Assembly: GCF_001463905.1 (NCBI RefSeq)
Contig: NZ_BBWR01000010.1
Coordinates: 1 to 64,000 of the forward strand
DNA length: 64,000 bases
Source of the DNA: Aureimonas frigidaquae
Lineage (GTDB): Bacteria > Pseudomonadota > Alphaproteobacteria > Rhizobiales > Rhizobiaceae
Reading direction: 5' to 3'
Shown one piece after another: positions 17,885 to 51,967 of the stretch. Both the position numbers and the translations under genes were made by a program. Under the pieces are notes generated by a model, which searched no databases, was not told where the DNA came from, and saw only the letters and a program-made list of their open reading frames with translations. Within the stretch, counting starts at the first letter, position 1, and each line of letters starts with the position of its first letter.

Positions 17885-18141
17885 GGGACCGTTAAGAACC
17901 TGGGTTGACGGCGGGCTTGCCGGGCCGCCGCAAATGGGCAGAATGTCTTCGGCGGCAGGCGCCGCAGGGCGCCACGCCCCCTGAAGGGCACTGCCCAGTA
18001 ACCGAAATTACGGCCCCTCGCAAGAAGCTCGGCGCGCGCGCCCGCCCGGCCCGTAGCCGGACGCGACGCCCATTGACTTGCCTGTGGCCGCGGCCCATCC
18101 ACCTTGCAGTACGGCGGAACAGGATCGAGGAGACCTTGGCG

Positions 18142-28461: not shown

Positions 28462-28469
28462 CGTCACTG

Positions 28470-30062: not shown

Positions 30063-30091
30063 GTGCCGGCGCGGCACGGACGGCAAAGGCC

Positions 30092-31114: not shown

Positions 31115-31157
31115 CGGTTCCGGACGACATGAAAGCGCAAGGGCGCATAGGCGCTTG

Positions 31158-31249
31158 AACTCCCATCCCTCCGCCGGTACGAGCCGGATCAGGTTCGGCG
31201 GGTTGGCGTCTAGCCTCTCAGCCCTCTCGTCAGGGCACCCCGTGAGTGA
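31158..31249 (-). promoter_or_regulatory. TPP riboswitch (THI element) controlling thiBPQ
   Basis: Read on the minus strand, the conserved aptamer parts occur in order: GGGGTGCCC, the CTGAGA box after a short stem, then ACCCG and GAACCTGATCCGG, then the GTACCGGCGGAGGGATGGGA closing stretch. It ends about 45 bases before thiB. Binding of thiamine pyrophosphate should shut off the importer. No U-run follows; a small AAGCGC/GCGCTT hairpin lies between aptamer and start codon, so translational control is more likely than termination. Confidence 0.95.
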
Positions 31250-31333
31250 GCGTAAAGTCTACCCTATTTGCAGCGGCGGTGGAAACACTGCATCCCGGAT
31301 TTCGATGATGCGATGTCACGGTGGGAGAAGCGG

Positions 31334-35974: not shown

Positions 35975-36322
35975 ATGTTCAAACGTCTTCTGATCGCCGT
36001 GTCGGCCCTCTCCATGCTGGCCGCCCCCATGGCCCAGGCGCAGGCGCAAAGCCGCCATGACGGGCCGCGCCACGGCTACCATCATAGCCAGCCGCGTTTC
36101 CATGCGCCCCAGCGCATGGAGCCACAGCGCGCCGGGCCGCCGCGCCACCATCTGCGCAAAGGTCAGCGCGTGCAGAACTGGCAACGCTACCAGCGTGTCG
36201 ATCACCGGCGCTACAAGCTGCGGGCGCCGTCCCGGGGCCAGCAATGGGTGCGGGCCGGCAACGACTATCTCCTGATCGCGGCAGCGACGGGCCTCGTCAT
36301 CGCCATGGCGACGGCGCGCTAG
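35975..36322 (+). CDS. RcnB-like periplasmic protein
   Basis: Small exported protein of 115 residues: signal peptide (MFKRLLIAVSALSMLAAPMAQAQA), a His/Arg/Pro/Gln-rich mature part, and a C-terminal RcnB-like motif with RRYKLRAPSRGQQWVRAGNDYLLI and a final hydrophobic stretch. RcnB in E. coli affects nickel/cobalt balance, but members of this family in Hyphomicrobiales are numerous and mostly uncharacterised. AAAGGA precedes the start. Its last bases overlap the end of the convergent LysR gene. Confidence 0.8.
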   Translation: MFKRLLIAVSALSMLAAPMAQAQAQSRHDGPRHGYHHSQPRFHAPQRMEPQRAGPPRHHLRKGQRVQNWQRYQRVDHRRYKLRAPSRGQQWVRAGNDYLLIAAATGLVIAMATAR

Positions 36323-37299
36323 AGCGTGGCAGCCAGCGTGCTGAGCGGTGCGGGCCCCGTCTGTGCGGACGACCCGCCCTCCTTCAGCCGCGCCTGCCAG
36401 GTGCCGGAGGCAACCAGCCCGGCGATCACATCGGCAAGGCAGCGCGCCACCACGTCGCTGCCTTGCGGGTTCATGGTACGCCGGGACACGACGACGGAAA
36501 GGCGCCAGGAGGGCGTCGGGTCGACAATGCGCACCGCCGCCATCTCACCCCGCTCCAGTTCCGACAGGAAGGCGAAATGCGGCATGATCGTGCAATGGCC
36601 TTCCTCTGCGACCAGTCGGGCAATGGCCGGCAGGCTGTCGCAATCCAGTGCGGCGGGCACGATATCGTGCCGGGCGGCGAGGCGCTCGACCAGGCCGCGC
36701 AGCACATGCGGCCGGCCGGGCAGCACCAGGGGCAGATCGAAAACCCGGTCGAAGCTGATCGAAGCGCGCCGCGCCAGCGGGCTGTGCCGCGGGACGAAAA
36801 GCATCAGATCCTCCGACATCGTCTCCGTCCAGGCGACGGTCTCGAAGGCCCGATGATCGTAGAGCAGCGCCACATCCAGCCGCCCCGCCTGGACGAAATC
36901 GTCGAGATAGCCCGACATCGCCTCCACCATATGCAGGACGATGTTGGGGTGGCGCGATGCGAGCGCGCGGTAGAGCGGCAGCGAAAGGTTCCGGGCCGCC
37001 GACGTCGGCAGCCCCACACAGACGCGCCCGGTCGGGTTTCCCGCGCGGGACTGGATGGCTTCGCGCGCCCTGTCCACGCCGTTCAGGATCTTGCGCGCAT
37101 GGTCGTAGAACTGGCGGCCGAGTTCCGTCAGCGCCGCGCCGCGGGCATGGCGCACCAGGAGTTCGGCGCCGAGCTCATCCTCCAGATTGCGCATCTGCTG
37201 GCTGAGGGACGGCTGTGCGATCCGCAGAGTTTCCGCCGCGCGGGAAAAATTGCCGACATCGGCGATCTCGACGAAGTAGCGAAGCTGGCGCAGATCCAT
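36319..37299 (-). CDS. LysR family transcriptional regulator (first of two flanking the deaminase)
   Basis: DNA-binding regulator of 326 residues with an N-terminal winged helix-turn-helix (MDLRQLRYFVEIADVGNFSRAAETLRIAQPSLSQQMRNLE) and a C-terminal effector-binding domain. It resembles the second LysR at 38710-39651 along the whole length (for example the shared ALDCDSLPA stretch, LLYD, DPTP-WRLS), so the two are paralogs. Both resemble the Nac/CbbR-like branch. GGAAGGGGG lies before the ATG at 37299. Immediately upstream is a perfect 15-bp inverted repeat (37324-37359), a likely operator, in the 73-base gap to the deaminase gene. Confidence 0.9.
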   Translation of the reverse strand: MDLRQLRYFVEIADVGNFSRAAETLRIAQPSLSQQMRNLEDELGAELLVRHARGAALTELGRQFYDHARKILNGVDRAREAIQSRAGNPTGRVCVGLPTSAARNLSLPLYRALASRHPNIVLHMVEAMSGYLDDFVQAGRLDVALLYDHRAFETVAWTETMSEDLMLFVPRHSPLARRASISFDRVFDLPLVLPGRPHVLRGLVERLAARHDIVPAALDCDSLPAIARLVAEEGHCTIMPHFAFLSELERGEMAAVRIVDPTPSWRLSVVVSRRTMNPQGSDVVARCLADVIAGLVASGTWQARLKEGGSSAQTGPAPLSTLAATL

Positions 37300-37323
37300 G
37301 ACACCCCCTTCCCCGACGCTGGT

Positions 37324-37359
37324 CGCATTCTGTGCAAAAGTCAATTTGCACAGAATGCG
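37324..37359. promoter_or_regulatory. Perfect 15-bp inverted repeat, probable LysR operator
   Basis: Arms CGCATTCTGTGCAAA and TTTGCACAGAATGCG are perfectly complementary, separated by six bases (AGTCAA). It lies 25 bases upstream of the first LysR start. The inner TTGCACAG also occurs in the promoter region of the second LysR gene, which supports a shared recognition site. Confidence 0.75.
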
Positions 37360-37372
37360 TACAATTACGGCG

Positions 37373-38683
37373 TCACTGGCGCTCGTTGGGACCGGGCCAA
37401 ATGGGTGCGAACTTGGCGATCGAAACCGTTTCCGGGCGGTTGTCCAGGTATAGGCGCGTCCGGCGGGCGGGCGTTTCTGCCAGGATGCGTCCGCGTCGCA
37501 CCACCAGGAGTCGGTCGGCCCGCAGGCGCACGGCATCGATCGGGCTTGGCGCGTCCAGTAGGACGAAGTCGGCATGGCAACCCGGTTTCAGCCCGTAGCG
37601 CTCCAGGCCGAAGGCATCCGCGGCATGGGTCGTGACCGCGTCGAAGGTATAGCGGATATCGTTCAGGCCGATCATGTGCGCAGCGTGCGTGGCCATATGG
37701 GCCACATCCAGCATGTCGGCATTGCCGAGCACGTACCAGGGGTCCATGCAGGAGTCCTGCGCCAACGCAACATTGACGCCCTGCGCCCGCAGTTCGGGGA
37801 TGCGCATCAGCCCGCGGCGCTTGGGGTAGCTGTCCGATCGGCCCTGCAGGTTCAAATTGGCCAGGGGGTTCGCGATGCAATGCAACCCGGCTTCCGCGAT
37901 GAGCGGAATGAGCTTGCTGGCATAATAATTGTCCATCGAGTGCATCGAGGTCAGATGCGATGCGGCGACCTGCCCCCGGAGGCCCAGACGGATGGTCTCG
38001 GCGGCGAGCGTCTCGACATGGCGCGAATGCGGATCGTCGGTCTCGTCGCAGTGAATATCCACTTTCAGGCCGCGCGCCGCCGCAAGCGTGCAGAGTTCGA
38101 CGACCGAGCGCTGACCGTCTGCCATGGTCCGCTCGAAATGCGGAATGCCGCCGACAATGTCGACGCCCATGTCCAGCGCGCGCACCAGATTGGCGGCGGC
38201 CGTGGGTGCGCGGAAGTAGCCATCCTGCGGGAAGGCGACGAGCTGCAGGTCGATCCTGTCCTTGACCATATCGCGGACATGCAGCAGCGCCTCGACCCCG
38301 ACCAGGCCCTCGTCGCACACGTCGACATGGGTCCGGATTGCGAGGAGCCCCTGCGCCACGGCCAGGTCGCAATAGCGCATTGCCCGCTCGACCACGGCAT
38401 CGACGGTGCGCAGCGGACGCTGTTCGCCCCAGAGCTGGATACCTTCCAGAAGCGTGCCGGAATGATTGAAGCGGGGCTGGCCGACCGACAGGGTGGCGTC
38501 CAGATGGAAGTGAACATCGACGAAGGGTGGGGCCAGCAGACATCCATCCGCCTCCACCACGCGGCCGGCCTCTGCCGTGATGGCCGGCTCAATGGCGGCG
38601 ATCTCTCCCCCGGCGACCGCCACGTCCATATGGGTGCGCCCATCGGGCAGGGTCGCATTCTTGATGATCAGGTCGAAGGTCAT
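37373..38683 (-). CDS. Cytosine deaminase-like amidohydrolase (CodA family)
   Basis: Metal-dependent hydrolase of 436 residues aligning with E. coli CodA without large gaps. Metal ligands H58 and H60 (VHFHLD), H211 (DIHCDE, with E214), H243 (SHLTSMHS) and D310 are present, as is the FPQDG glutamine. At the position of CodA D314, which shapes pyrimidine specificity, this protein has S311 (AQDSCMDPW). Related enzymes deaminate cytosine, isocytosine-type rings or creatinine; the substrate here is uncertain. GAGGA precedes the ATG. It lies between two LysR genes and next to an operon ending in a creatininase-like gene, so a creatinine-type substrate is one reasonable guess. Confidence 0.85.
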   Translation of the reverse strand: MTFDLIIKNATLPDGRTHMDVAVAGGEIAAIEPAITAEAGRVVEADGCLLAPPFVDVHFHLDATLSVGQPRFNHSGTLLEGIQLWGEQRPLRTVDAVVERAMRYCDLAVAQGLLAIRTHVDVCDEGLVGVEALLHVRDMVKDRIDLQLVAFPQDGYFRAPTAAANLVRALDMGVDIVGGIPHFERTMADGQRSVVELCTLAAARGLKVDIHCDETDDPHSRHVETLAAETIRLGLRGQVAASHLTSMHSMDNYYASKLIPLIAEAGLHCIANPLANLNLQGRSDSYPKRRGLMRIPELRAQGVNVALAQDSCMDPWYVLGNADMLDVAHMATHAAHMIGLNDIRYTFDAVTTHAADAFGLERYGLKPGCHADFVLLDAPSPIDAVRLRADRLLVVRRGRILAETPARRTRLYLDNRPETVSIAKFAPIWPGPNERQ

Positions 38684-38709
38684 CCTATCCTCGTTCGCGT
38701 TTGAAAACT

Positions 38710-39651
38710 TCAGGCCGGAGTGGCGCCCGTCCGGCGCAGGTCGGCTTTCCAGTGGCCGGACTGGACGAGTGTCTGGACGACCTCGTCCACAAGATGGGCG
38801 ATGGCGGCGACGGCGCGCATGTTGGCCGCCTTGTGCGACAGGACGAGGGACAAGCGCCAATCGGGCGTCGGATCCCTGATCGCCACGGCGGCCACATCGC
38901 CGCGCAGAATGGCCGGGCCGATGCCGAAGGCGGGGTATAGGCTGCCATAACCCTCACCGATCAACGCCAGCATGGCCGGGAGGCTGTCGCAATCCAGCGC
39001 CACGGACAGTTCCGTATCCGCTCGCGCGGCAAAGGCTTCGGCAACCTCGCGGATGACATGGGGCCGCGCCGGAAGCACCAGCGGCAAGCCCCGCAGCCGG
39101 CGGAAGCCGACGGCGCCCTCCCCGGCCAGCGGGTGACCGACCGGCAGGATCAGGTGCAGATCCTCCCGCAGGAGGTCCATAGTCCGGATGCCGCCCGGGC
39201 CACGCCGATCGTACAGAAGGGCAATATCGAGCCGCCCGCTCTGGACCCACTCGTCGAGCGGCCCGGTCATGCCCTCCACCAGATGCAGGGCAATATCGGG
39301 GAAGCGCCGCCGGGCGGTTAGGATCAAGGGGGCAGCGAGGCCCCGGCAGACCGCCGAGGGTATGCCGATGACGACCCGGCCCCTGGGGCTTGCGAGCGCC
39401 TCGGTCATCGCCTCACGCGAGCGGTCAACGTCGCGCAGGATAGCGCGGGCATGATCGGCAAGGATGCGCCCCGCCGGCGTCGGCGCCACGCCGCGCGCAT
39501 GGCGGGTCAGGAGCTCGACCCCCAATTCGTCCTCCAGGAGGCGCAGGTGCTGGCTGAGCGAGGGCTGGGCGACCCGCAGCACGCGCGCAGCCCGCGACAG
39601 GCTTGCGCTTTCGGCGATCTGCAGAAAGTAACGCAGTTGCCGCAGCTCCAT
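38710..39651 (-). CDS. LysR family transcriptional regulator (second)
   Basis: Regulator of 313 residues with the same layout and close similarity to the LysR at 36319-37299: N-terminal winged helix (MELRQLRYFLQIAESASLSRAARVLRVAQPSLSQHLRLLE) and an effector domain. It lies 26 bases before the deaminase gene on the same strand and is divergent from the ABC-transporter operon, so it is well placed to control both. Its upstream region carries two TGCACAG motifs (39725, 39743). The stop is followed directly by the deaminase ribosome site, suggesting one transcript for LysR, deaminase and possibly the other LysR. Confidence 0.9.
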   Translation of the reverse strand: MELRQLRYFLQIAESASLSRAARVLRVAQPSLSQHLRLLEDELGVELLTRHARGVAPTPAGRILADHARAILRDVDRSREAMTEALASPRGRVVIGIPSAVCRGLAAPLILTARRRFPDIALHLVEGMTGPLDEWVQSGRLDIALLYDRRGPGGIRTMDLLREDLHLILPVGHPLAGEGAVGFRRLRGLPLVLPARPHVIREVAEAFAARADTELSVALDCDSLPAMLALIGEGYGSLYPAFGIGPAILRGDVAAVAIRDPTPDWRLSLVLSHKAANMRAVAAIAHLVDEVVQTLVQSGHWKADLRRTGATPA

Positions 39652-39966
39652 TCCATGCTCCGCCCGCTTGTCGATGCCGGGAGTGTCGTGGCCTGTCGCA
39701 GGCTGTCAAACTGCACGTCTCGTATGCACAGCGCCTATCGATTGCACAGTATAGATGCGGCATATGGGATATTTCCCAATCGATTCAGTCATGACGCTTC
39801 TATGCTGCGGGCGATGGATGCACTGCCATAACTTATGCCTATGGCTCGTCATCGGTATTTCATCTTTTGATTTGGAGTGTGCGTCGGGCAGTCTGAGGTC
39901 CTGCTGCGCTGCCGCAAAGGCAAGCCCGCACATGTTCGACCGTATGTTTTTCGACTGGAGAACAGG
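39652..39966. promoter_or_regulatory. Divergent control region between LysR and ABC-operon
   Basis: A 315-bp gene-free region, AT-richer than its surroundings. It contains two direct TGCACAG copies (39725-39731 and 39743-39749, the second inside ATTGCACAGTAT) that match the arms of the palindrome at 37324-37359. It also contains a TGGGA/TCCCA short palindrome (39765-39778). It should hold both promoters and the LysR sites. Confidence 0.6.
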
Positions 39967-41118
39967 ATGACGAAGTTTCCGATCACCGATCTGCGCGGCC
40001 TGCTTCTGCAGCCGAGCCGCCGCGAGCTCCTGAAGGGTGCCGGCGCTTTGGCCGGGGCGGCCGCTCTCAGCGGTTTGCTGCCGGATGGCGCGGTGGCACA
40101 GGAGAATGTCCTCAACATCCTGTCCTGGCCCGGCCATGGCGATCCGGCCTTCGTCAAGCCCTTCGAGGATCAGTACGGCGTCAAGGTCGTCGCCAAGGAA
40201 TATGTCGGCGGCGAACCCATGCTCGCTTTGATGAACCAGTCCCCTCCCGGCTCCTTCGACGTCGTGCTGGCCGATGCCGAATATATCGGAATGCTGCAGG
40301 AAGGCGGCTTTATCGATGAAATGGACCCCGCGGACTACCCGCTGGCCGACTACTGGCCGGAGTTCCAGAAGTTTCCCCTGCACTGGCAGGACGACAAGCT
40401 CTATTCGGTCCTGATCCGGTTCGGATATCTGGGCCTTGCCTATCGCACCGACATGCTGAGCCCCGAGGACGTGCAGAGCTACGAGGCTCTGTGGAACGAG
40501 AAGGTCAAGGGCAAGGTCGGCTTCTTCGACTGGTATCTGCCCACCATGGGCTGCCTCAGCCTCTACAACGGCAACCGGCCCCCCTTCGATATCGACGATG
40601 CGGCCTTCGACACGCTCAAGGAGACGCTCTTCTCGCTGCGCCCGCAGGCGAGCGGCTTCTATTCCATGGCCGATCAGTTCGCCATGCTCACCAATGGCAC
40701 GGCGGCCATCATTCCCGGCATCGGCGACTGGGTCGTCCTGCTTCTGCAGAACGAAGGCGTACCCGTCGACGCGGTCGTGCCCGAACAGGGCGGCATCCAG
40801 TGGACGGAATCCATGTCCATCGTGTCCTCCTCGACCAAGAAGGACCTCGCCAAGAAGTTCATCCAATATGCCAGCTCGCCGGAGGGACAGTTCCGCTCAG
40901 CCCGCCTGCCGGCTTACTGGGCCTCCATCCCGAACAAGAAAGGATGGGAGTTGATGAATGAGCAGGCGCCGGAGGATGCCAAAAAACTGCGCCACACCTT
41001 CGACGCGCGCAACGTGATGGACGAGTACAAGGAAGGGAAGATCTTCATCCGCCAGACTCCCGTCCAGCAGGACATCGAGACCTGGAACGACACCTGGTCC
41101 GAATTCAAGGCCATGTAG
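39967..41118 (+). CDS. ABC transporter substrate-binding protein, spermidine/putrescine (PotD) type
   Basis: Periplasmic binding protein of 383 residues. The N-terminus has a twin-arginine-like motif (PSRRELLKGAGALAGAAALSG), suggesting Tat export, and the mature protein begins near ENVLNILSWPGHGDPAF. The SBP_bac_8 / PotD-like fold is seen in the WPGHGDP, DVVLADAEY and FFDWYLPTMG stretches. First gene of a compact operon with two permeases, an ATPase, an amidohydrolase and a creatininase-like enzyme, so the ligand is probably a small cationic or cyclic nitrogen compound rather than a polyamine; that is inference. GGAG precedes the ATG. Confidence 0.88.
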   Translation: MTKFPITDLRGLLLQPSRRELLKGAGALAGAAALSGLLPDGAVAQENVLNILSWPGHGDPAFVKPFEDQYGVKVVAKEYVGGEPMLALMNQSPPGSFDVVLADAEYIGMLQEGGFIDEMDPADYPLADYWPEFQKFPLHWQDDKLYSVLIRFGYLGLAYRTDMLSPEDVQSYEALWNEKVKGKVGFFDWYLPTMGCLSLYNGNRPPFDIDDAAFDTLKETLFSLRPQASGFYSMADQFAMLTNGTAAIIPGIGDWVVLLLQNEGVPVDAVVPEQGGIQWTESMSIVSSSTKKDLAKKFIQYASSPEGQFRSARLPAYWASIPNKKGWELMNEQAPEDAKKLRHTFDARNVMDEYKEGKIFIRQTPVQQDIETWNDTWSEFKAM

Positions 41119-41207
41119 GCCCGCTTCGCCCAGACGACGGGCGGCATCGGGCGGCACCTTTGCCCGCCCGACGCATCAGCCATCCGCTCAACAACGGCCA
41201 AGGCCCC

Positions 41208-42077
41208 ATGAAACACAGACAGGATGCCGCCGCACGACACGCGCGGGCCCGCTTCGCCGTTGCCCTCGCGGCTCCGACGCTGATCTGGCAGATCGCCTTC
41301 TTCGTGGTTCCCATGGGGTTCCTGGTGGCGATGACCTTCTGGTCCGTGCGCAATTTCCGCCTGCAGCCCGATTTCACTTTGGCCAACTGGCAGACGATCC
41401 TGTCGGCCGGCTTCTTCCAGAACGCCTTCGTCTACACCTTCGCCATGTCGGCCGGGGCGGCGCTCTTCGTCAGCCTGGCGGCCTTTCCCGCGGCCTATGC
41501 GCTCGCCTTCCGCGCCGGGCCCCGCCTGCGCCTGATGGCGGCCGGGCTCCTGATCGTCCCCTTTTTCACCAGCCTGCCGGTCCGCATCTATTCCATGCAG
41601 ATCTTCTTCAGCCCGGGCGGCGTCATCAACAGTATGCTGGCGGCGTTGTCCCTGCCCCCGATCAGCGTGCTCAACTCGCCCACCGGCACCTTCATCGGCT
41701 TTCTCACGCTGACGGCGCCGCTCGTGGTGCTGCTCCAGACCTTCGCCCTCTCCGCCGTCGACCGGCAGTTGATCGAGGCCGCACAGAACCTGCGCTGCGG
41801 CCGGATGCGCACCATCCTGGACGTGATCATCCCCTCGGCGCGCGTCGGGCTGGTCGTGGCCGGCGCACTCGCCTTCGTGCTGGCTTTCGGCGACTATATC
41901 AGCCCGCAATTCCTGGGCGGGTCGAACCCGCCCACGCTATCCATCCTGATCGCCGATCAGGTGAAGTCGGGCAATCACTGGCCCCGCGCCTCGGTCGTCG
42001 CCGTGGTCATGATCGTCACCCTGACGGCCGTGCTCGGGCTTCTCCTGAAATTTGCCTATGGAAGGAAAGCCGCGTGA
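41208..42077 (+). CDS. ABC transporter permease, PotB/PotH type
   Basis: Inner-membrane permease of 289 residues with six predicted membrane segments and one BPD_transp_1 domain. The EAA loop is visible in IEAAQNLRCGRMRTILDVIIPSA. The start at 41208 has AAGG upstream, and the frame extends slightly further back to 41160. Its stop overlaps the start of the second permease (GTGA), so the subunits are co-translated and probably form a heterodimer. Confidence 0.9.
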   Translation: MKHRQDAAARHARARFAVALAAPTLIWQIAFFVVPMGFLVAMTFWSVRNFRLQPDFTLANWQTILSAGFFQNAFVYTFAMSAGAALFVSLAAFPAAYALAFRAGPRLRLMAAGLLIVPFFTSLPVRIYSMQIFFSPGGVINSMLAALSLPPISVLNSPTGTFIGFLTLTAPLVVLLQTFALSAVDRQLIEAAQNLRCGRMRTILDVIIPSARVGLVVAGALAFVLAFGDYISPQFLGGSNPPTLSILIADQVKSGNHWPRASVVAVVMIVTLTAVLGLLLKFAYGRKAA

Positions 42078-42895
42078 CACGCGCCCGCATCGCCGACGGG
42101 GTCCGCAGCGGCCTGCTTCTGGCCTGGCTCGGAATCGTCTTCGCCTTCATCTTCGCGCCCATCGCCTCGACGATCCTGTTTTCGTTCAACGCAGATCGCT
42201 TCGTCAGCCTGCCCTGGGGCGGTTTCTCGCTGCAATGGTACGAGGCCGTGTTGAACGACGAATCCGTGCGGCGCGGCCTGTCCAACAGCCTCATCGTGGC
42301 GGCAGGCAGCGCGGTCCTGTCGACCTTCATCGGCTTTACGACCGCCTATGTCGACTATCGGTTCCGATTCTTCGGCAAGCGCGTCTACATGGCGCTCGCC
42401 GCGCTGCCGCCCACCGTGCCGGTGGTGATCATGGGCGTGGCCATGCTGACCTTCCAGGGACGGATCGGCCTGTCAGGCACGATCTTCGGACTGATCGCGG
42501 CGCATGTCGTGATCTGCGCGCCCTTCGCCATGGCCTTGATCCGGATGCGTCTGGCCGATCTCGACCCGGATCTGGAGCCCGCGGCCTGGAACCTCGGCGC
42601 CGGGCAATGGACGACCCTGCGGGAGATCGTGGTACCGTTCCTCGGCCCGACGCTGTTTGCGGCGCTGCTCATCACCGCCTCGGTCTCCTTCGACGAGTTC
42701 ATGATCGCCTGGTTCATCTCGGGCCTCAACGAAACCCTGCCGGTCCGGGTGCTGGCCATGCTGCAGGGCCAGGTCAGCCCGCGCATCAACGCCGTCGGCG
42801 CCATGGTCTTCGCCGTGTCCATTCTCCTGGTGGCGACCGCGCAGTTCATCGCATCGCGCCGGCTTGCGGCAGCAGGAAGGGAAAAGGCGCAATGA
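42074..42895 (+). CDS. ABC transporter permease, PotC/PotI type
   Basis: Second membrane subunit, 273 residues, six predicted segments, with the EAA-type loop LEPAAWNLGAGQWTTLREIVVPFLGP. It starts with GTG overlapping the previous stop and ends in an ATGA overlap with the ATPase gene. These overlaps on both sides indicate strict translational coupling of the importer subunits. Confidence 0.9.
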   Translation: MTRARIADGVRSGLLLAWLGIVFAFIFAPIASTILFSFNADRFVSLPWGGFSLQWYEAVLNDESVRRGLSNSLIVAAGSAVLSTFIGFTTAYVDYRFRFFGKRVYMALAALPPTVPVVIMGVAMLTFQGRIGLSGTIFGLIAAHVVICAPFAMALIRMRLADLDPDLEPAAWNLGAGQWTTLREIVVPFLGPTLFAALLITASVSFDEFMIAWFISGLNETLPVRVLAMLQGQVSPRINAVGAMVFAVSILLVATAQFIASRRLAAAGREKAQ

Positions 42896-43974
42896 GTGTT
42901 ACCATGATCGAGCTGGACCATGTGGCCAAGGCCTACGACCGCCAGCAGGCCGTGGCGGATGTCTCGCTCACCATCGAGAAGGGCGAGTTCATCGCCTTGA
43001 TGGGCCCGTCCGGCTGCGGCAAGACGACCACGTTGCGCATGCTGGCAGGCCTGGAGCGGCCGACGGGCGGCGAAATCCGCGTTTGGGGGCGGCGCATCAA
43101 CGAGGATCCGGCCTGGTCGCGCGATACGCCGCTCGTCTGGCAGAACTACGCCCTGTTCCCCTTCATGTCCGTGCGGCGCAATGTGGAGTTCGGCCTCAAG
43201 CACCGGGGCATGCCGCAGAAGGAGCGCTCCGCCAAGGCGGATGAATGGATGGGGCGCATGGGCATCGCCGCCTTTGCCGACCGGCTGCCCAGCCAGCTGT
43301 CCGGTGGCCAGCGCCAGCGGGTCGCGCTGGCGCGGGCGCTGGCGACCGAGCCGGAATTGCTCCTGCTCGACGAACCGCTCAGCGCGCTCGATCCGCACCT
43401 GAAGGTGAAGATGCAGTCCGAGTTGGTGCGCCTTCATCGAGAGCTCGGCATCACCTTCGTCTGCGTCACGCACAGCCCGTCCGAAGCCTTCGCCATGGCC
43501 GATCGGGTGGTGATCATGAAGGATGGGCATGTGCAGCAGGTCGGCGCCCCGCGAGACATCCACCGGCACGCCGCCAACCGCTTCGTCGTCGAGTTTCTCG
43601 GCGGCTCCAACATGTTCCCGGCCCGGATCGACACGCTGGAGGGCGGCATGGCCGTGCTCGACGCCGCCGGTACGCGCCTGCGTGCGCCTGTCGGCGGGCA
43701 GGCGCTCGCGCCGGGCGATGCGGCGACGCTGGTCGTCGGATCGGACCGCATGTCGGTCGGCGGCGCCGTGCCGCCCGGCGACAATGTGATCGAAGCCACC
43801 GTGAGCCTTGTCGAATATGTCGGCGCGGCGGTCACCGTCTTCCTGGAGACCGAGCGCGGGCACGACATCCGTGCCCAGCTTTCCGCCCGCGACCTGGAGG
43901 CCAGACCGCTGGCCCCGGGCGACCGCCTCCCCGTGCACTGGCCGGTCGAGGCGGGCTATTTCATCCATGACTGA
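42892..43974 (+). CDS. ABC transporter ATP-binding protein, PotA type
   Basis: ATPase of 360 residues: Walker A GPSGCGKT at 38-45, Q-loop VWQNYALFPFM, signature LSGGQRQRVALARAL, Walker B LLLLDEPLSALDP, and a C-terminal TOBE domain (about 280-355), the standard MalK/PotA layout. All catalytic elements are intact. It overlaps the second permease by four bases and is followed 16 bases later by the amidohydrolase gene. Confidence 0.92.
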   Translation: MSVTMIELDHVAKAYDRQQAVADVSLTIEKGEFIALMGPSGCGKTTTLRMLAGLERPTGGEIRVWGRRINEDPAWSRDTPLVWQNYALFPFMSVRRNVEFGLKHRGMPQKERSAKADEWMGRMGIAAFADRLPSQLSGGQRQRVALARALATEPELLLLDEPLSALDPHLKVKMQSELVRLHRELGITFVCVTHSPSEAFAMADRVVIMKDGHVQQVGAPRDIHRHAANRFVVEFLGGSNMFPARIDTLEGGMAVLDAAGTRLRAPVGGQALAPGDAATLVVGSDRMSVGGAVPPGDNVIEATVSLVEYVGAAVTVFLETERGHDIRAQLSARDLEARPLAPGDRLPVHWPVEAGYFIHD

Positions 43975-43990
43975 CATCGGGAGACGATCG

Positions 43991-45493
43991 ATGAGCACTC
44001 TCATTGAAGGGGCGACCCTCATCGCCATGGACGGCGCCCACGGCGCAGAACCCTTCACGGGCGACATCCTGTTCGGCCCGGACGGGATCGAAGCCATCGG
44101 CCCCGGCATCGTGCCGAAGGACGGTGACGATGTGATCGACGGGCGGGGCAAGCTCGTCATGCCGGGGCTCGTCAACAGCCACCTCCATTCCAACGAGGCG
44201 CTGTACAAGGGGCGGTACGACAATATGCCGCTCGAAGTCTGGATGCTGTACGCCTACCCCATCCTGGCGGCCAAGCCGCTTGCGCCGCGGCTCATCTATC
44301 TGCGCTCGATGCTGGTGGCCATGGAATCGCTGCGCACCGGCGTCACCTGCATCACCGACGATCTTTACGAGAGCCCGAAGTCCGAACTGTCCCTGATGGG
44401 CGCCGTGGTCGATGCCTATGACGATGTCGGCATCCGGGCGACGGTGTCGGCGCATGTCGTCAACCGCAACTTCCTGGACACGATCCCCTTCTCCCGCGAC
44501 TACGTGCCCCAGGATCTGCAGGACGAGATCGGCCGCATCACGCCCATGAGCACCGGCGAATACATCGCCTTCGTGAAGGAAGCGCATGCCCGCTTCCAGG
44601 GCCGATCCGGCAGGATCGGCACCATGCTCGCCCCTTCCGCCCCGCAGCGCTGCACCGTCGATCTGATGCAGGCCGCCAACGAGCTGGCGCGCGACTGGGG
44701 TGTGCCCTTCCACACCCATATCGTGGAGACAAAGGTACAGGGCGTCACCGGGCCGCAATTCTACGGCAAGTCGCTCATGGCCTATATGGACGATCTCGGC
44801 CTTCTGAACCCCTGGACGACCATTGCCCATTCCATCTGGGTCAGCGACGACGATATCGCGCGGATGGGCCGGGCCGGCGTCAGCGTCGCCCACAACGCCA
44901 TATCCAACCAGAAGCTCGGGGCCGGTTCGGCGCCGGTGCGCAAGCTGCTCGATGCGGGCGTCCATATCGGCCTTGGCTCGGATGGCATCTCATCCAACGA
45001 TACGCCCCGCATCTTCGACGTGATGAAGGCCGCGGGCCTGATGCACAAGGTCAACAATCCGGACTGGGCCCGCTGGCTGACGGCATCGGAAGTGCTGCAT
45101 GCCGGCACCCTGGGCGGCGCACGGACGGCCCTCCTGGAGGACAAGACCGGCTCGCTCGAAGTGGGCAAGGCAGCCGACCTCCTGGTGATCGACATGGAGA
45201 CCGCCAATTTCACGCCGCTCCACGATATCCGCAACCACCTCGTCTATTGCGAAAACGGGTCCTCGATCACACAGGTCTATGTCGGGGGCGAACTCGTCTG
45301 CGAGGACGGCCGGCTGACGAAGGTGGACGAGAAGGCCCTCCTGGCCGAACTGCGCGCCATGATGCCGGAATTCGTCGCCTACACGAAAGGCGTCGAAGCC
45401 GCCAATCGCCAGCTCGAACCGGCCTTCACCAAGGTCGTGCACCGCTGCTACGGCATGGATATCGGCATGACGCGGTGGGCCAGCGATGTCTGA
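43991..45493 (+). CDS. Amidohydrolase family protein (TRZ/ATZ, guanine/8-oxoguanine deaminase-like)
   Basis: Cytosolic metal-dependent hydrolase of 500 residues in the subtype that deaminates purines, s-triazines and related rings. Metal-site motifs: NSHLHSNEAL (HxH), HTHIVET, AHSIWVSDDDI (His) and GSDGISSND (Asp). The composite barrel with N- and C-terminal beta-sandwich parts is typical. Compared with guanine deaminase it is about 50 residues longer, so the exact substrate is unknown. GGGAGA precedes the ATG, and its stop overlaps the creatininase start by eight bases, so both enzymes probably act on one pathway. Confidence 0.86.
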   Translation: MSTLIEGATLIAMDGAHGAEPFTGDILFGPDGIEAIGPGIVPKDGDDVIDGRGKLVMPGLVNSHLHSNEALYKGRYDNMPLEVWMLYAYPILAAKPLAPRLIYLRSMLVAMESLRTGVTCITDDLYESPKSELSLMGAVVDAYDDVGIRATVSAHVVNRNFLDTIPFSRDYVPQDLQDEIGRITPMSTGEYIAFVKEAHARFQGRSGRIGTMLAPSAPQRCTVDLMQAANELARDWGVPFHTHIVETKVQGVTGPQFYGKSLMAYMDDLGLLNPWTTIAHSIWVSDDDIARMGRAGVSVAHNAISNQKLGAGSAPVRKLLDAGVHIGLGSDGISSNDTPRIFDVMKAAGLMHKVNNPDWARWLTASEVLHAGTLGGARTALLEDKTGSLEVGKAADLLVIDMETANFTPLHDIRNHLVYCENGSSITQVYVGGELVCEDGRLTKVDEKALLAELRAMMPEFVAYTKGVEAANRQLEPAFTKVVHRCYGMDIGMTRWASDV

Positions 45494-46265
45494 CGGCGCG
45501 GCCGTCCGCCTGGCGGACATGACATGGATGGAGTTCGCGGAGCGCCTGCCATCCAACCCGATCGTGCTTCTGCCGATCGGCTCCACCGAGCAGCACGGAC
45601 CGCATCTGCCGCTCGCCACCGATGCCATCCTACCGGAAGAGATCGCCCTGCGGGTGGCCGAGCGGATCGGCGGCATCGTCGCGCCGACGCTTTCCTATGG
45701 CTACAAATCGCAGCCCAAGACCGGCGGCGGCAACCACTTTCCCGGCACCATCAGCCTGGACGCTTCAACGCTGATCGCCCTGATGCGCGATATCATCAAC
45801 GATCTCTGCCGCCACGGCATACGCCGGATCGTCCTGTTCGATGGCCATATGGAGAACCAGTGGTTCATCACCGAAGCCGCGGACCTCGCCATTCGTGACC
45901 AGCGCCGCGAAGGGGTGAACGATGTCACCATCCTGAAGCTCGGCTACTGGGAGTTCATTTCGGCACAAACGGAAGAGATCCTCTTTCCGGACGGGCTGAT
46001 CAGCTGGGCCCTGGAACACGCCGCCGTCATGGAAACCTCTGTCATGCTGCATCTGCGCCCGGACCTTGTGCGGGCGGACCGCATTCCCGACGGGCCGCCG
46101 GCGGCTTTCCCCCTGTTCGATCCCTACCCGTTCGACCTGCGCCCCATACCCGCGCACGGCGTCCTGTCCTCCGCCGCCAGCGCGACGGCCGAGAAGGGAC
46201 GCGCAGTGTTGGCGCAGGTCGTGCCGGACATTGCCAGGGCACTCCAGGATCACTTCGCCGCCTGA
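45486..46265 (+). CDS. Creatininase (creatinine amidohydrolase)-like enzyme
   Basis: Predicted binuclear metal amidohydrolase of 259 residues, the usual creatininase length. The metal ligands align with Pseudomonas creatininase: E35 and H37 (STEQHGPH), D46, H121 and E123 (GHMEN). The stretch YGYKSQPKTGGGNHFPGTISLD is nearly the Pseudomonas sequence, and W155, W174, H178 and E183 of the pocket are kept. One difference is M122 where the Pseudomonas enzyme has a tyrosine. Creatininase converts creatinine to creatine; other members cleave FAPy or mycofactocin precursors. The strong local similarity favours creatinine or a near analogue. No creatinase gene is seen nearby, so the next step is missing from this window. 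Confidence 0.85.
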   Translation: MSDGAAVRLADMTWMEFAERLPSNPIVLLPIGSTEQHGPHLPLATDAILPEEIALRVAERIGGIVAPTLSYGYKSQPKTGGGNHFPGTISLDASTLIALMRDIINDLCRHGIRRIVLFDGHMENQWFITEAADLAIRDQRREGVNDVTILKLGYWEFISAQTEEILFPDGLISWALEHAAVMETSVMLHLRPDLVRADRIPDGPPAAFPLFDPYPFDLRPIPAHGVLSSAASATAEKGRAVLAQVVPDIARALQDHFAA

Positions 46266-47504: not shown

Positions 47505-48194
47505 TCAGGCTTTCGGGCGCGCGACGTCGTTGACGCCGTCGGCATCCGGGGCAAGCCCGTAGCTCATGCGGCGCATCTGCTCCAGGACACGCTCCATCTC
47601 GTCATCGGGCAGGATGGGCGGCTCGCCCAGGGTCAGCGCCTGGACATAGAGCCGCGACAGCGTCTCCACCTCGATCGCGAGCCACAAAGCCGATTCCAGC
47701 GTCTTGCCGAGGGCGATCTGCCCATGCTGCCCGAGCAGGCAGGCGAGCCGGTCCTGCAGCGCCTCCAGCGCCGCGTCGGACAGGGCCTGCGTCCCGAAGG
47801 TGGCATAGCGGGCGCAGCGTATGGTGGTGCCGCCGGCCACGCCCGTCATGTAGTGGAAGCTCGGTATGGTCTTGTGGTGGACCGCGAGCGTCGTGGCATA
47901 GACCGAGTGGCAATGCAGCACCACGTCGATATCGGGTCGTGCCCGCAGGATATCACGGTGGAAGCGCCATTCGGACGATGGCCGGCGGCCGCTGTAGCTC
48001 CCGTCGAAATCCATCTCCACGATGTCGGCCGGCTCCATCCTGTCATAGGCGAGCGAGGATGGCGTGATCAGGAGCCCGCTGCCGGTGCGGACCGACAGGT
48101 TGCCGGCCGTCCCCTGGTTGATGCCGCTTTCGTTCATCTTGCGGCAGGTCGCGACCATCTCCTCGCGCAGCGCCGTTACGTCCGTCTCTGTCAT
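47505..48194 (-). CDS. Class II aldolase/adducin family protein (L-fuculose-phosphate aldolase-like)
   Basis: Zinc-dependent aldolase of 229 residues, predicted to cleave a ketose-1-phosphate to DHAP and an aldehyde. Motifs: GTAGNLSVR near the N-terminus, the acid/base SSEWRFH region with its Glu, and zinc ligands in HCHSVYATTLAV plus the distal LLGQHGQIALGK. The fold and length match FucA/AraD-like enzymes. It lies 31 bases after the FGGY kinase gene, third in a lacI-kinase-aldolase operon. The true sugar phosphate is unknown; a five- or six-carbon ketose-1-phosphate is likely. Confidence 0.88.
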   Translation of the reverse strand: MTETDVTALREEMVATCRKMNESGINQGTAGNLSVRTGSGLLITPSSLAYDRMEPADIVEMDFDGSYSGRRPSSEWRFHRDILRARPDIDVVLHCHSVYATTLAVHHKTIPSFHYMTGVAGGTTIRCARYATFGTQALSDAALEALQDRLACLLGQHGQIALGKTLESALWLAIEVETLSRLYVQALTLGEPPILPDDEMERVLEQMRRMSYGLAPDADGVNDVARPKA

Positions 48195-48225
48195 GTCTTC
48201 TCTCTCTCCTCCAGGTTGTCAGGGT

Positions 48226-49659
48226 TCAGGCTGCCGCGGCCAGCGCCAGGCTGCGCCAGCGGGCCGCATAGGGCAGGATTTTGGCTATCTCCAATGGGCG
48301 GGCATCCTCCAGCGCCAGCGGCACCGATCGTGCCGGCCGGCCGTGCGACGCCAGGAGGGCAGCCCCGGCCGCCACGCCATCGGCCTGCCGGTTGAAGGCC
48401 ACCCGGCATTGCGGGTTCAGCGCCGCCAGGAGCGGAGCGAAGAGGGGATCGCGCAGGAAAGCTCCATCCAGGACGATGGTGCCCTGATTGCCCAGCGCCG
48501 CCACGCACTCGCTCGCCAGGAGCGCCGCGGTCATGAGCGCCAGGGACACGCGCTCGCCGGCATCCGCCGGCGCCGGCCCCTCGATCCGGCCGCGGCCGGC
48601 GCTGCCGGGAAACAGCCCGTCATCGCGCCCGAAGGAGGGCACCGCGAAGCTTTCCCGCGCGACCAGCGCCTGGAGCGCCGCTTGCGACGCCATGCCACCG
48701 GCTGCCCCCTCCCCGGCAATGGCGGCAAATTCACGCCCGCCCTGGGTCAGCGCGCCGCCGAGCGGGCGGCCGTCCACATCGGCATTGAGCGTCATGCCGC
48801 GCCGCGGATCCAGGCGGTCGAGTGCGGCATGGTCGGACAGGGCCACGATCCATGTTCCGGTGGAAACGACGGTCATGTGCTGAAGGCCCGCCGCCTGGTA
48901 GCGGTAGAAATTGGCGCTGGAATCATGAATGCCGGCGAGCACGCGGCAGGTCGGCGAAAGGCCGGTCCGGGCGGCGATGGCCGGACGCACCGGCCCGAGC
49001 GTCGCATGCGCCGGCTGCAAGGGCGGCAGGTAGCGCCCCCAACCCCGGGCCCGCACGATGTCGGAGGGCCGCCCCTCCTGCAGGCGCCAGAAGCCGGATT
49101 GCGCCGCATGGTTGGTGATCTCGCTCGCCATCCCGCCGCTGAACCGCCAGGCCCAGTATTGCGGCACGCTCAGGAAGGCCGACGCCTCGCCCGCGGCGTC
49201 GGGACGCTCCGTCATCACCCACAGCATCTGCCGCGCCTGATGCGTCGCCCCCATCATGATGGCGCTGCCGCGCTCGGCGAAATCGCCCGATTGCGCCCGA
49301 TAGACGGCATCGACCGCCTGAGGGGCCGGTTGCTCGTAATCGATCATCGGCAGGATCGGCTCGGGGCGCTCCAGCTCGTCCTCGCGCACGAGGACGCCGC
49401 CCGAACCGTGTCCGGCCGCCACGATCGCCTCCAGGCGAAAGCGGCGCGCCGCCTGGCCGAGCGCGTCCAGGAGCCAGGCCTCCGCCGCGGCAAGGTCATG
49501 CCGGCGCCAGGGCGCGCCCTCTCTCTGCGTGACCCCATTGCCGGTGGAAATCTGGTCGAGAATGGTTCCGTCCGCCGCCGCGACCGCCAGCTTCAGATTG
49601 GTCTTGCCGGCATCGATGACGGCCACGCAGGCCTGTGCCGGTTCGTTCGTCTCGTTCAT
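48226..49659 (-). CDS. FGGY-family carbohydrate kinase
   Basis: Sugar kinase of 477 residues. N-terminal ATPase motif VIDAGKTNLKLAVA (usual form D-x-GT-T/S) and C-terminal FGGY domain with LDGAFLRDPLFAPLLAAL and AAGAALLASHG. It resembles the fuculokinase/rhamnulokinase branch more than xylulokinase, and pairing with a class II aldolase agrees with phosphorylation at C1 of a ketose. I start at 49659 because GGGAGGA lies eight bases upstream; the frame runs back to 49800. It sits 35 bases after lacI and before the aldolase gene. Confidence 0.87.
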   Translation of the reverse strand: MNETNEPAQACVAVIDAGKTNLKLAVAAADGTILDQISTGNGVTQREGAPWRRHDLAAAEAWLLDALGQAARRFRLEAIVAAGHGSGGVLVREDELERPEPILPMIDYEQPAPQAVDAVYRAQSGDFAERGSAIMMGATHQARQMLWVMTERPDAAGEASAFLSVPQYWAWRFSGGMASEITNHAAQSGFWRLQEGRPSDIVRARGWGRYLPPLQPAHATLGPVRPAIAARTGLSPTCRVLAGIHDSSANFYRYQAAGLQHMTVVSTGTWIVALSDHAALDRLDPRRGMTLNADVDGRPLGGALTQGGREFAAIAGEGAAGGMASQAALQALVARESFAVPSFGRDDGLFPGSAGRGRIEGPAPADAGERVSLALMTAALLASECVAALGNQGTIVLDGAFLRDPLFAPLLAALNPQCRVAFNRQADGVAAGAALLASHGRPARSVPLALEDARPLEIAKILPYAARWRSLALAAAA

Positions 49660-49694
49660 GTCACGGTCCTCCCCACCGTTCGTCTCGCCTCCCG

Positions 49695-50726
49695 TCAGGC
49701 CAGTTCGGCCCCCGGCGGCCGGTGCGCCGCGGCGTCGCGCGGGGGCACCACGATGCGGCTGCCCGGGGGCACGCCCGGCCCGTCGAACACCGCGAAGCAA
49801 TGACGGATCAGCTCCTCCACATCCTGGCGCATCATGATGACGGGAAGTGGCATGGCATAGGCGAAGGGGTCCCAGTCGAAGCAGCCGAGCACCGTCGAGG
49901 CGGGCCAGCGCCCTGCCGCGACGAGGCGCGCGAGCCCTTCCAGCGCGGTGATGGAATTGACGAAGATGCCGGGCGGGGCATGATCCGCCAGCCGGGCAAA
50001 AACCTCCTGTGCAGCGGAGGGCTGGTAGCCGCAGGGCAGGATCGATTCGGGATGAAAGGCGACCTGCCGTGCCGCGAAGGCCGCCTCGAAGCCAATCATG
50101 CGCTCATCCGTGGCGAACTCGCCCCGCCGCCCCCCGACGAACTGGATCTGCGCGGGGTCACCGCCGCGCTCGGCCACCATGTCAATCAGCCGCAGGGTCA
50201 GTTCGGTCGAGCCACCACGATTGTCGGTTACCACGGAGGGCGCGGCGGCGCCCGGCAGGTCGAGGTTCACGCAGGCAATGCCGGCATCGATGCAGAGCTG
50301 GTTCAACGGATCGGGACGGTTGACGCCTGCGAAGATCAGGCATTCGACCGCCTGGGCGATCAAGGTTTCCGTGACCTGCCGCTCGGTCGCATCGTCGCGC
50401 TGCGTGCTCACCACGATCGGACAGAGGCCGCGCTCCCGCGCCCGCGCCTCGAAGGTCTCCGCCAGCCCGGCGAAGAAGCGGTTTCGGTAGTGCGGGATGA
50501 TCATGCCCGCCAGGCTGGAGCGTTGCAGGCGCAATCCCCGGGCACGCTGGTTGGCATTGTAGCCGACGGCCTCCGCCGCCTTCAGGACGCGCCCGGCCGT
50601 ATCGGCATGGATGCGGTAGCGCTCCCAGGACCCGTTCATCACCAGGCTCACCGTGGAAGCGGAAATGCCGGCCGCCTCGGCGATGTCGTAGATGGTGGAG
50701 CGCCGCCCCGCCTTGGCCTTCCGCAT
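49695..50726 (-). CDS. LacI family transcriptional regulator
   Basis: Repressor of 343 residues with an N-terminal LacI helix-turn-helix (STIYDIAEAAGISASTVSLVMNGS, about 10-33), hinge region (YNANQRARGLRLQ), and a periplasmic-binding-protein-like sensor domain. The start at 50726 (MRKAKAGRR) fits the family; an in-frame ATG exists at 50750. It is the first gene of the minus-strand kinase/aldolase operon and divergent from the ABC operon, and a perfect GCTAAAT-GG-ATTTAGC operator lies between them. It most likely represses both directions until a sugar or its phosphate binds. Confidence 0.92.
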   Translation of the reverse strand: MRKAKAGRRSTIYDIAEAAGISASTVSLVMNGSWERYRIHADTAGRVLKAAEAVGYNANQRARGLRLQRSSLAGMIIPHYRNRFFAGLAETFEARARERGLCPIVVSTQRDDATERQVTETLIAQAVECLIFAGVNRPDPLNQLCIDAGIACVNLDLPGAAAPSVVTDNRGGSTELTLRLIDMVAERGGDPAQIQFVGGRRGEFATDERMIGFEAAFAARQVAFHPESILPCGYQPSAAQEVFARLADHAPPGIFVNSITALEGLARLVAAGRWPASTVLGCFDWDPFAYAMPLPVIMMRQDVEELIRHCFAVFDGPGVPPGSRIVVPPRDAAAHRPPGAELA

Positions 50727-50786
50727 TGCCTGGCCCCTTCCCTGCCCCACCCTGTCTACCCTCCCGGAACAGTTTGGAACAGCCTG

Positions 50787-50815
50787 TTGACGCCAGTGCT
50801 AAATGGATTTAGCGT
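50787..50815 (+). promoter_or_regulatory. Promoter of the LsrB/RhaS-like ABC operon overlapping a LacI-type operator
   Basis: TTGACG (50787-50792), a 17-base spacer and TAGCGT (50810-50815). The perfect palindrome GCTAAATGGATTTAGC (50798-50813) covers the spacer and part of the -10. This layout allows repression by blocking RNA polymerase. The -10 is weak, so the exact promoter is provisional; the palindrome is certain. Confidence 0.7.
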
Positions 50816-50897
50816 CCAGATCAAGCCGGTCGCGATCATGATGCCGGCACACCGTACGGGGCTTGGGAGAGCCGTTCGGTCACCTGGGAGGAAAGCC

Positions 50898-51908
50898 ATG
50901 TCTATCGCCACCGTCACCCGCCGGGCGCTGCTCGGCGCGGCCTGTTTCCTTGCCGTATCGGCGAGCATGCCCGCATTTGCGCAAAGCGCCGACGCGCCGA
51001 CCATCGGCGTCGTGGTCAAGATCGGCGGCATCCCGTGGTTCAATGCCATGGAAGCCGGGATCAAGGAGCGCGCGGCGGCGCTCGGCGTCAACGCCTTCAT
51101 GGTCGGCCCGACCAGCGCCGATCCGGCATTGCAGGTGCGTGCCGTGGAGGATCTGATCGCCCAGGGCGTGGATGTGATCGGCGTCGTCCCGAACGATGCG
51201 CAGGTGCTGGAACCGGTGCTCAAGCGCGCCATGGATGCCGGCATCAAGGTCATCGCCCATGAATCGCCCGACCAGCAGAATGTCGACTGGGACTTCGAGC
51301 TCGCCTCCGTCCAGGGCTTCGGAGACGCCTATGGCAAGCAGCTCGCGGAGGTGATGGGCGGCAAGGGCAAATACGCCGTCTTCGTCGGCTCCCTCACCGT
51401 GCCGCTGCACAATGCCTGGGCCGATGCGGCCATCGCCTACATCAAGGCGAACCATCCGGACATGGAACTGGTGGGCGATCGCTACGGCGTGGCGGAAGAT
51501 GCCGATGCCTCGCGCCGCACGGCGCTCGATCTGATGCGCGCCCATCCGGACCTCAAGGGCTTCCTGGCCTTCGGCAGCCAGGGTCCGATCGGCGCGGCGC
51601 GCGCCGTGGAAGAGCGCCGCAAGGGCGGCGAGATCGTGGTCATGGGCCCATTCTCTCCGGGCCAGGGACGCACCCTCGTCCATGACGGCATCCTGACCGG
51701 CGGCTTCATGTGGAACCCCAAGCAGGCCGGAGAGGTCTTCGTGACGCTCGGCACGATGCTCGCCAAGGGCGAAGAGGTCAAAGACGGTATGGAGATCGAA
51801 GGTCTGGGCACCGTCCATCCCGACGTCGCCAAGAAGAACATCATCGTCGATCAGCTCGTCACCATCAACAAGGACACGGTGGACGAGCTGGCCGGCCTCG
51901 GACTGTAG
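50898..51908 (+). CDS. Sugar ABC transporter substrate-binding protein (LsrB/RhaS-like)
   Basis: Periplasmic binding protein of 336 residues with signal peptide (cleavage near PAFAQ) and the type I two-lobe fold of the AI-2/rhamnose group (GVVVKIGGIPWFNAMEAGIKERA; ASVQGFGDAYGKQLAEVM; TGGFMWNPKQAGEVF). It resembles LsrB and rhizobial RhaS more than ribose-binding RbsB. GGGAGGAA precedes the ATG. It leads an operon of one ATPase, two permeases and a ketose 3-epimerase. The epimerase makes a ketose or polyol-derived sugar a likelier ligand than autoinducer-2. Confidence 0.9.
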   Translation: MSIATVTRRALLGAACFLAVSASMPAFAQSADAPTIGVVVKIGGIPWFNAMEAGIKERAAALGVNAFMVGPTSADPALQVRAVEDLIAQGVDVIGVVPNDAQVLEPVLKRAMDAGIKVIAHESPDQQNVDWDFELASVQGFGDAYGKQLAEVMGGKGKYAVFVGSLTVPLHNAWADAAIAYIKANHPDMELVGDRYGVAEDADASRRTALDLMRAHPDLKGFLAFGSQGPIGAARAVEERRKGGEIVVMGPFSPGQGRTLVHDGILTGGFMWNPKQAGEVFVTLGTMLAKGEEVKDGMEIEGLGTVHPDVAKKNIIVDQLVTINKDTVDELAGLGL

Positions 51909-51967
51909 GCAAGCCCTGCGGCGCGGCCTTGCCGCGCCGCTTCCGCCCGCTGATCGCACGAGGGTAC

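Follow-up and report, generated by a model that had tools for sequence, protein, structure and literature searches.

Creatinine and creatine enter soil and sea through animal excretion. In the classical pathway for their use, creatininase is followed by creatinase, with sarcosine and urea as products. A different set of genes, crnT, codA, creT, crnA, hyuB and cshA, has been described in Corynebacterium glutamicum, where strain ATCC 14067 combines CrnT, CodA, CreT and CrnA, and where CreT is a single membrane protein with 11 predicted helices that resembles major facilitator superfamily transporters (PMC8864220). According to the same report, R. denitrificans, which lacks a CreT homologue, uses creatine all the same, and another way of entry is suggested by its authors. 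Elsewhere, cytosine deaminase has been named as the enzyme that converts creatinine to N-methylhydantoin in a study of sponges (PMC6742649), and a creatininase-like gene was noted near biuH in one genome in a study of nitrifiers (PMC12625717). Here, in a stretch of 64,000 nucleotides from Aureimonas frigidaquae (contig NZ_BBWR01000010.1, positions 1 to 64,000; hereafter the window), we analysed a cluster in which an ATP-binding cassette (ABC) importer, an amidohydrolase (hereafter AHS) and a creatininase homologue lie together, and which is probably a conserved catabolic operon for creatinine-like cyclic guanidines.

The cluster spans positions 36319-46265 and holds nine intact genes arranged as two divergent units, just as the original prediction had it; positions were confirmed from open reading frames, and gene classes were assigned with Pfam and NCBIfam. 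The plus-strand unit begins with a solute-binding protein (SBP) exported by the twin-arginine translocation (Tat) route (39967..41118; Pfam SBP_bac_8 and TAT_signal), continues with two permeases (41208..42077 and 42074..42895; both BPD_transp_1) and an ATPase (42892..43974; ABC_tran and TOBE_2), and ends with AHS (43991..45493; Amidohydro_1, no named NCBIfam family) and the creatininase homologue (45486..46265). The tight packing proposed for this unit holds, with overlaps of 4, 4 and 8 bases and a gap of 89 bases between the SBP and permease genes. A further 8-base overlap, between the ATPase and AHS genes, arises only if AHS starts upstream at 43967. When AHS is aligned with its relatives, a start at 43991 is the more likely one, which leaves a gap of 16 bases.

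When compared with the classical pathway, the window has in common a creatininase of the curated family and an importer of a family seen in creatinase-linked operons, but carries AHS and a CodA-like gene instead of creatinase. Likewise, it resembles C. glutamicum in combining creatininase, a CodA-type deaminase and substrate transporters, but differs in having a binding-protein ABC importer rather than CreT, in having AHS and LysR genes, and in having neither hyuB nor cshA in the window (there is no cysteine hydrolase match, and the Hydantoinase_B gene revealed by family search lies on another contig). A tblastn search of the window with creatinase, biuret/carbamoylsarcosine-type cysteine hydrolase, ureohydrolase, cytidine deaminase (CDA)-fold deaminase, amidase, cyclase, urease and other queries gave no match at 1e-5, in line with the earlier statement that no creatinase or carbamoylsarcosine hydrolase gene is present there and that the pathway would be partial. 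Creatinase was not found in the rest of the genome either, the best matches having 24% (48 bits) and 25% identity, and other contigs carry four ureohydrolase-family genes, one Hydantoinase_B gene and two further creatininase-family genes.

Relatives of the cluster were found by a creatininase scan of public genomes, of which the best 80 of 235 loci were kept. A comparison of gene order across these relatives, as the original prediction had suggested, revealed that the block SBP-permease-permease-ATPase-AHS-creatininase is kept in order and strand in 21 of the 80, all of them in Alphaproteobacteria: Aurantimonas, Aureimonas, Neorhizobium, Ancylobacter (in A. aquaticus, L050 is a complete block) and other Xanthobacteraceae, Arboricoccus, Roseobacteraceae, Acuticoccus and metagenome-assembled genomes of Rhodospirillaceae type. 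Because the six-gene order is kept so often, the arrangement is more than chance. The complete nine-gene arrangement is seen in an Aurantimonas locus (L034).

Further relatives came from a search with the SBP over a sample of the class (matches in 9 of 385 genomes at E <= 1e-90, the genome studied here included) and from a creatininase search over the order (34 of 397 genomes, 41 places), after which the stretches around the matches were fetched; in addition, 22 creatinase places were inspected among the 46 listed, two of them within those stretches and 20 fetched separately. In all, 125 creatininase genes were aligned to the Pseudomonas putida reference, 47 of which have importer genes nearby, making 44 loci with the window (L115, L117 and L120 were left out of these counts as second copies of L073, L048 and L056, and the counts depend on the identity thresholds used). 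AHS, which had been treated as a side item in the original prediction, accompanies importer and creatininase more often than any other enzyme, being present at 29 of these 44 loci, window included. Creatinase lies beside 5 importer-linked creatininases, and a ureohydrolase beside 10. Creatinase and AHS were never seen together in the surroundings of the 125 creatininase genes. In the survey of the order, counted by eye, the importer is present at 15 of the 41 places (more remotely so in L114), where it is accompanied by AHS in 5, creatinase in 3, a ureohydrolase in 2 and none of these in 5; at the 26 places without the importer, a ureohydrolase lies nearby in 20.

The importer is the part of the cluster whose role we infer most firmly: it is best read as a putative carrier of creatinine-type rings (cyclic acylguanidines), because of its creatinase-linked relatives. 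Members of this importer family occur together with creatininase and creatinase in five genomes (L121, L122, L130, L132 and L207), and the creatinase of L132 matches solved creatine amidinohydrolases at 839, 679 and 588 bits. Since L121 and L122 were found via the SBP, only the three found via creatininase (L130, L132 and L207) are free of the bias that this brings. Creatinase and creatininase occur together on six stretches, of which five carry the importer; the sixth (L170) is truncated, its contig ending 421 bases ahead of the creatininase. The importers of L127 and L191 have a ureohydrolase as their partner. The ureohydrolase of L064 is nearest to 3-guanidinopropionase (479 bits, versus 325 for guanidinobutyrase), and L119 has the importer, two creatininases and urease genes on one stretch. 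In a quick tree of 45 binding proteins, rooted at the midpoint and assessed by the Shimodaira-Hasegawa-like approximate likelihood-ratio test (SH-aLRT) only, the window, the creatinase-linked and the ureohydrolase-linked rows share one group of 39 rows with a support of 100, from which the importer is judged to share ancestry with those linked to creatinase. Within this group, the window lies in a clade of 23 rows (support 93), 22 of which have AHS on the same stretch, and the creatinase-linked rows form, with L123 and L124 (neither of which has creatininase on its stretch), a separate clade of 6 (support 99). AHS-linked rows are found elsewhere in the tree too (L056, L064, L052, L114 and three cyanobacteria).

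The creatininase homologue matches the curated family TIGR04448 at 357.7 bits, above the cut-off of 235, and we propose that it is a putative ring-opening cyclic-amide hydrolase. All five residues that we take to be its metal ligands (E34, H36, D45, H120 and E122) are kept, as they are in all 125 aligned creatininases. The substrate pocket of the P. putida enzyme is presumably formed by G119, Y121, Y153, W154, W174 and F182; at these positions the window has G, M, Y, W, W and M, so that four of the six are kept and M121 and M182 differ. Y121M together with D175A was considered as a combination that excludes creatininase activity, and this was dropped: two creatinase-linked creatininases (L130 and L207) have Ala175 like the window, and positions 121 and 182 vary among the creatinase-linked enzymes. 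For the same reason the pocket changes, as read from the alignment, neither exclude nor prove creatinine as the substrate.

Trp174 separates creatininases by their company, being present in 44 of the 47 that are importer-linked, versus 9 of the 78 others. Stated the other way, 53 creatininases have W174 (44 with the importer) and 72 lack it (3 with the importer, all in cyanobacteria). The partners of these 72 include a TauA-like binding protein (39), a ureohydrolase (28), a cysteine hydrolase (22) and DUF1989 (19); the score of this cysteine hydrolase for the biuret hydrolase model is 265 bits, where the cut-off is 370. Such operons are seen at about 5400-14600 in L061 and L069, at 7881-19505 in L109 and at 3945-14423 in L129, with a TauA-like ABC system, two SDR genes, a biuret-hydrolase-like cysteine hydrolase, DUF1989 and either two ureohydrolases or a urea-carboxylase-like gene, and have the look of a separate pathway for ureides or guanidines. 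In the relatives, ring opening seems to feed the breakdown of guanidino acids or ureides.

AHS itself falls below the cut-off of each of its 25 best NCBIfam models. The original prediction had called it guanine-deaminase-like; that it is an amidohydrolase stands, but the guanine deaminase label is loose, with 120 bits against a cut-off of 375 for TIGR02967. A confident structure model (predicted local distance difference test score 87.2) comes closest, among solved structures, to AtzA, MTA/SAH-type deaminases, TrzN and Vcz, an isocytosine deaminase. AHS keeps H64, H66, H243, E246, H280 and D331. In its fold and in this H, H, H, E, H, D active-site set it resembles the COG0402-type deaminases and chlorohydrolases AtzA, TrzN, 3HPA, Vcz and NdmH. 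It differs from them in scoring below the cut-offs of the models named above and in having Glu69 where 3HPA, an 8-oxoguanine deaminase, carries Gln. A Gln belongs to the catalytic set of NdmH and the guanine deaminases (PMC13054789), and its position would correspond to AHS residue 69. Four further residues, R75, Y76, N78 and H155, are common to 33 of 49 AHS rows, four of which are duplicates (matches that cross a stop codon were excluded from the AHS tree, and L040, L055 and L143 are absent from it).

In light of this, we lean towards a reading of the cluster as an uptake and breakdown system for a small cyclic acylguanidine, either creatinine or a close analogue; creatinine itself, within that class, is a tentative candidate. 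The Tat-exported SBP and the ABC transporter would bring the ring in, and the creatininase-type enzyme would open its cyclic amide. We propose that AHS takes nitrogen off the amidino carbon, acting either on the ring while still closed or on the guanidino acid left once it is open, and that it fills the place taken in sister operons by creatinase or a guanidino-acid ureohydrolase. The CodA-like enzyme of the divergent unit would contribute an accessory ring deamination, and the two LysR proteins would regulate the region. The substrate class, the order of the two enzymatic steps and the mode of regulation are the suggested parts of this scheme, and the AHS step is both its least certain and its most interesting part. 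A more general formulation, which we hold to be possible though distinctly speculative, is that importer and creatininase form a core whose second enzyme can be swapped between creatinase, a guanidino-acid ureohydrolase and AHS, that AHS performs an undescribed step in which a guanidino compound, cyclic or ring-opened, is deiminated or hydrolysed, and that the ABC system serves creatinine-like rings.

Several observations weigh against this scheme. Eight of the ten loci with a ureohydrolase beside an importer-linked creatininase also have AHS, which means that the slot of the second enzyme is not strictly exclusive; 11 of the 47 importer-linked creatininases have no creatinase, AHS or ureohydrolase at the thresholds used; the importer is present at only 2 of the 22 creatinase places inspected; and the counts are not independent of phylogeny. 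The CodA-like gene is near the creatininase at 7 of 43 importer loci and in the window, hence at only 8 of 44. At the level of residues, the window has M121 and M182 where creatinase-linked creatininases have Y/F at 121 and L at 182. The importer of Bradyrhizobium plasmid p186_1 lies on a stretch without creatininase and with a frameshifted AHS gene (in L143, at 10001-11499, this AHS copy is split over two frames, is unannotated and is apparently a pseudogene). At two loci, L056 and L057, there are in addition a barbiturase-like enzyme, an amidase and two CodA-like genes, a set that fits a pyrimidine-type ring, and an AHS relative in Sinorhizobium meliloti has a nucleoside hydrolase and a BMP-type ABC system as neighbours, which fits nucleobases better.

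These last two cases point to the alternative that survives best, namely that the ring broken down is nucleobase-like and has a 2-amino-4-oxo face, the candidates being isocytosine, substituted guanines, 5-methylcytosine and related pyrimidines, with AHS and the CodA-like enzyme acting as base deaminases and the creatininase homologue opening a later intermediate. The presence of MTA/SAH-type deaminases and Vcz among the nearest folds of AHS would agree with this, as would a small GuaD-fold deaminase, with Bacillus subtilis guanine deaminase as its best match in the PDB, near 20 of 43 importer loci (window excluded). The barbiturase-like ring-opener is found only in L056, its copy L120 and L057 among the loci searched. 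An s-triazine (cyanurate) pathway was considered for L056 and rejected: its ring-opener passes the cut-off for cyanuric acid hydrolase (425 versus 360 bits) but is nearer to barbiturase in the PDB (464 versus 282 bits). In the AHS tree, the copies from S. meliloti and Ensifer fall inside the AHS clade, though with a weak SH-aLRT support of 80; however, they have Arg at 78 and Ala at 155 in place of the common N78 and H155, and since these residues differ, the alignment argues for a related but different substrate. A direct transfer of a nucleobase function from S. meliloti is weakened accordingly by these two positions. Since it is creatininase, creatinase and guanidino-acid hydrolases that accompany the importer, and since AHS has Glu69 rather than the Gln of 3HPA and fails the guanine deaminase model, we regard a nucleobase-like substrate as possible but rather unlikely.

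The CodA-like deaminase (37373..38683, minus strand) bears on this alternative as well. It belongs to the PRK07572 family (NCBIfam, 704 bits, cut-off 438) and keeps the metal ligands H61, H63, H214, H246, D313 and E217 as well as Q156. In E. coli numbering its pocket has Ala278 and Ser314, and so does not match that of unlinked members of the family, in which Ile278 and Cys314 are present in 21 out of 21 genes sampled from the 141 genomes (of 397 in the order) that bear the family at E <= 1e-100. Among 10 operon-linked genes (a set without the second CodA-like genes of L056 and L057, the remote ones of L037 and L038, the duplicates L115 and L120, and L055, which was absent from the alignment), Ala278 is present in 6 and Ser314 in 8; the operon-linked genes of L116 and L043 have Cys314. 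Because these operon-linked genes sit in at least three places of the CodA tree, the operons probably acquired the family on more than one occasion. In the 5-methylcytosine deaminase of Klebsiella pneumoniae, residue 315 is Ser (PMC6186785), a position that would be equivalent to 314 here and that also favours the nucleobase alternative. With operon pockets that differ in this way, and with Ser as in the 5-methylcytosine enzyme, plain cytosine appears less likely as the substrate, and the protein is probably an accessory ring deaminase.

It is less probable, and in our view unlikely, that the two known routes for creatinine run side by side here, with CodA leading to N-methylhydantoin, creatininase leading to creatine and a dedicated importer supplying both. 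Genes of the two types are indeed present, growth on creatinine is known for C. glutamicum ATCC 14067 with its CodA, CrnA and transporters (PMC8864220), and relatives of the importer are accompanied by creatinase. However, the window has no N-methylhydantoinase, carbamoylsarcosine hydrolase or creatinase gene, the creatinase matches elsewhere in the genome are no better than those given above, and the CodA-like gene lies at only 8 of the 44 importer loci. The original prediction of a creatinine or cyclic-amide degradation island with a dedicated importer therefore fares unevenly. Its core, an importer with creatinine-like cyclic-amide enzymes, is supported by the creatinase-linked importer family in five genomes, by the TIGR04448 match and by a binding protein that does not resemble polyamine binders; a creatinine deaminase role for CodA is weakened, both by the breadth of the family (141 of 397 genomes) and by its presence at 8 of 44 loci. 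That the importer is a polyamine transporter adjoining unrelated hydrolases by chance is very improbable: although the nearest named families of its SBP and permeases are Pot-type, and the SBP of one relative is labelled spermidine/putrescine in the public record, the gene order is conserved, the SBP scores 60.8 bits against a PotD cut-off of 582, and the positions that we take to be the acidic polyamine contacts of PotD align to Trp, Pro and Glu, so that of the proposed likeness to PotD/PotABC the ABC architecture and a distant homology remain.

Among the relatives, the CodA-like gene lies on the same strand downstream of creatininase in L040, L043, L051, L055, L056 and L073, and a cyclase-family gene and an amidase are also present at seven creatininase loci (Xanthobacteraceae and Arboricoccus). 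L037 (12868-19970) and L038 (about 12700-18800) carry, about 2 kb from creatininase, a second importer operon that includes an amidase and remote relatives of the CodA-like gene and of AHS. The cyanobacterial loci L076, L083 and L102 hold a distant form of the whole set, consisting of the importer, two AHS genes, creatininase and a ureohydrolase. Finally, a gene of polysaccharide-deacetylase type, weakly like the allantoinase PuuE (58.8 bits, cut-off 424.6), recurs near importers or creatininases (L119 1592, L123 11950, L124 8461, L051 17079, L054 16951, L126 8300, L188 11667, L192 7669, L193 12356 and L214 5229).

Turning to the remainder of the minus-strand unit, two LysR-type regulators, both assigned by Pfam, flank the CodA-like gene. 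The first (36319..37299, minus strand; LysR_substrate and HTH_1) has a relative at 45% identity or more in 12 of 41 loci that contain the SBP, and the second (38710..39651, minus strand) has a counterpart in L034 (60%) and L040 (55%). Between the two divergent units, an alignment of four intergenic regions, with a mean identity of only 50% overall, has most of its invariant columns at 39819..39867 (no strand assigned); this block is a candidate for a putative regulatory site. With Rfam at gathering thresholds, one tRNA and one thiamine pyrophosphate (TPP) riboswitch were identified in the window, both outside the cluster. The riboswitch (31149-31252, minus strand; 64.8 bits) lies beside genes that by eye resemble a thiamine ABC importer (27760-31114, minus strand). 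Directly after the cluster, a sugar locus at 47505-55564 has, also judged by eye, a class II aldolase, an FGGY kinase, a LacI regulator, a sugar-type ABC importer and a sugar isomerase, and nothing indicates that it belongs to the creatininase cluster.

The cluster brings together known enzyme types in an unusual arrangement, and would be a variant with AHS in place of creatinase or a ureohydrolase. According to the original prediction, no description of this exact combination was known; creatininase with CodA and transporters was already known from C. glutamicum ATCC 14067, but the accessible sections of that report (PMC8864220) mention neither an ABC importer of this kind nor AHS. In the accessible parts of the open-access PubMed Central literature, we found no description of an ABC importer with creatininase and AHS, nor of an ABC system for creatinine-like rings. 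If the reading as a creatinine-like cyclic guanidine operon is true, it would provide a substrate class for an ABC importer family whose members can be labelled as spermidine/putrescine transporters and a function for an unnamed family of amidohydrolases, and it would explain the use of creatinine-like nitrogen by alphaproteobacteria without creatinase.

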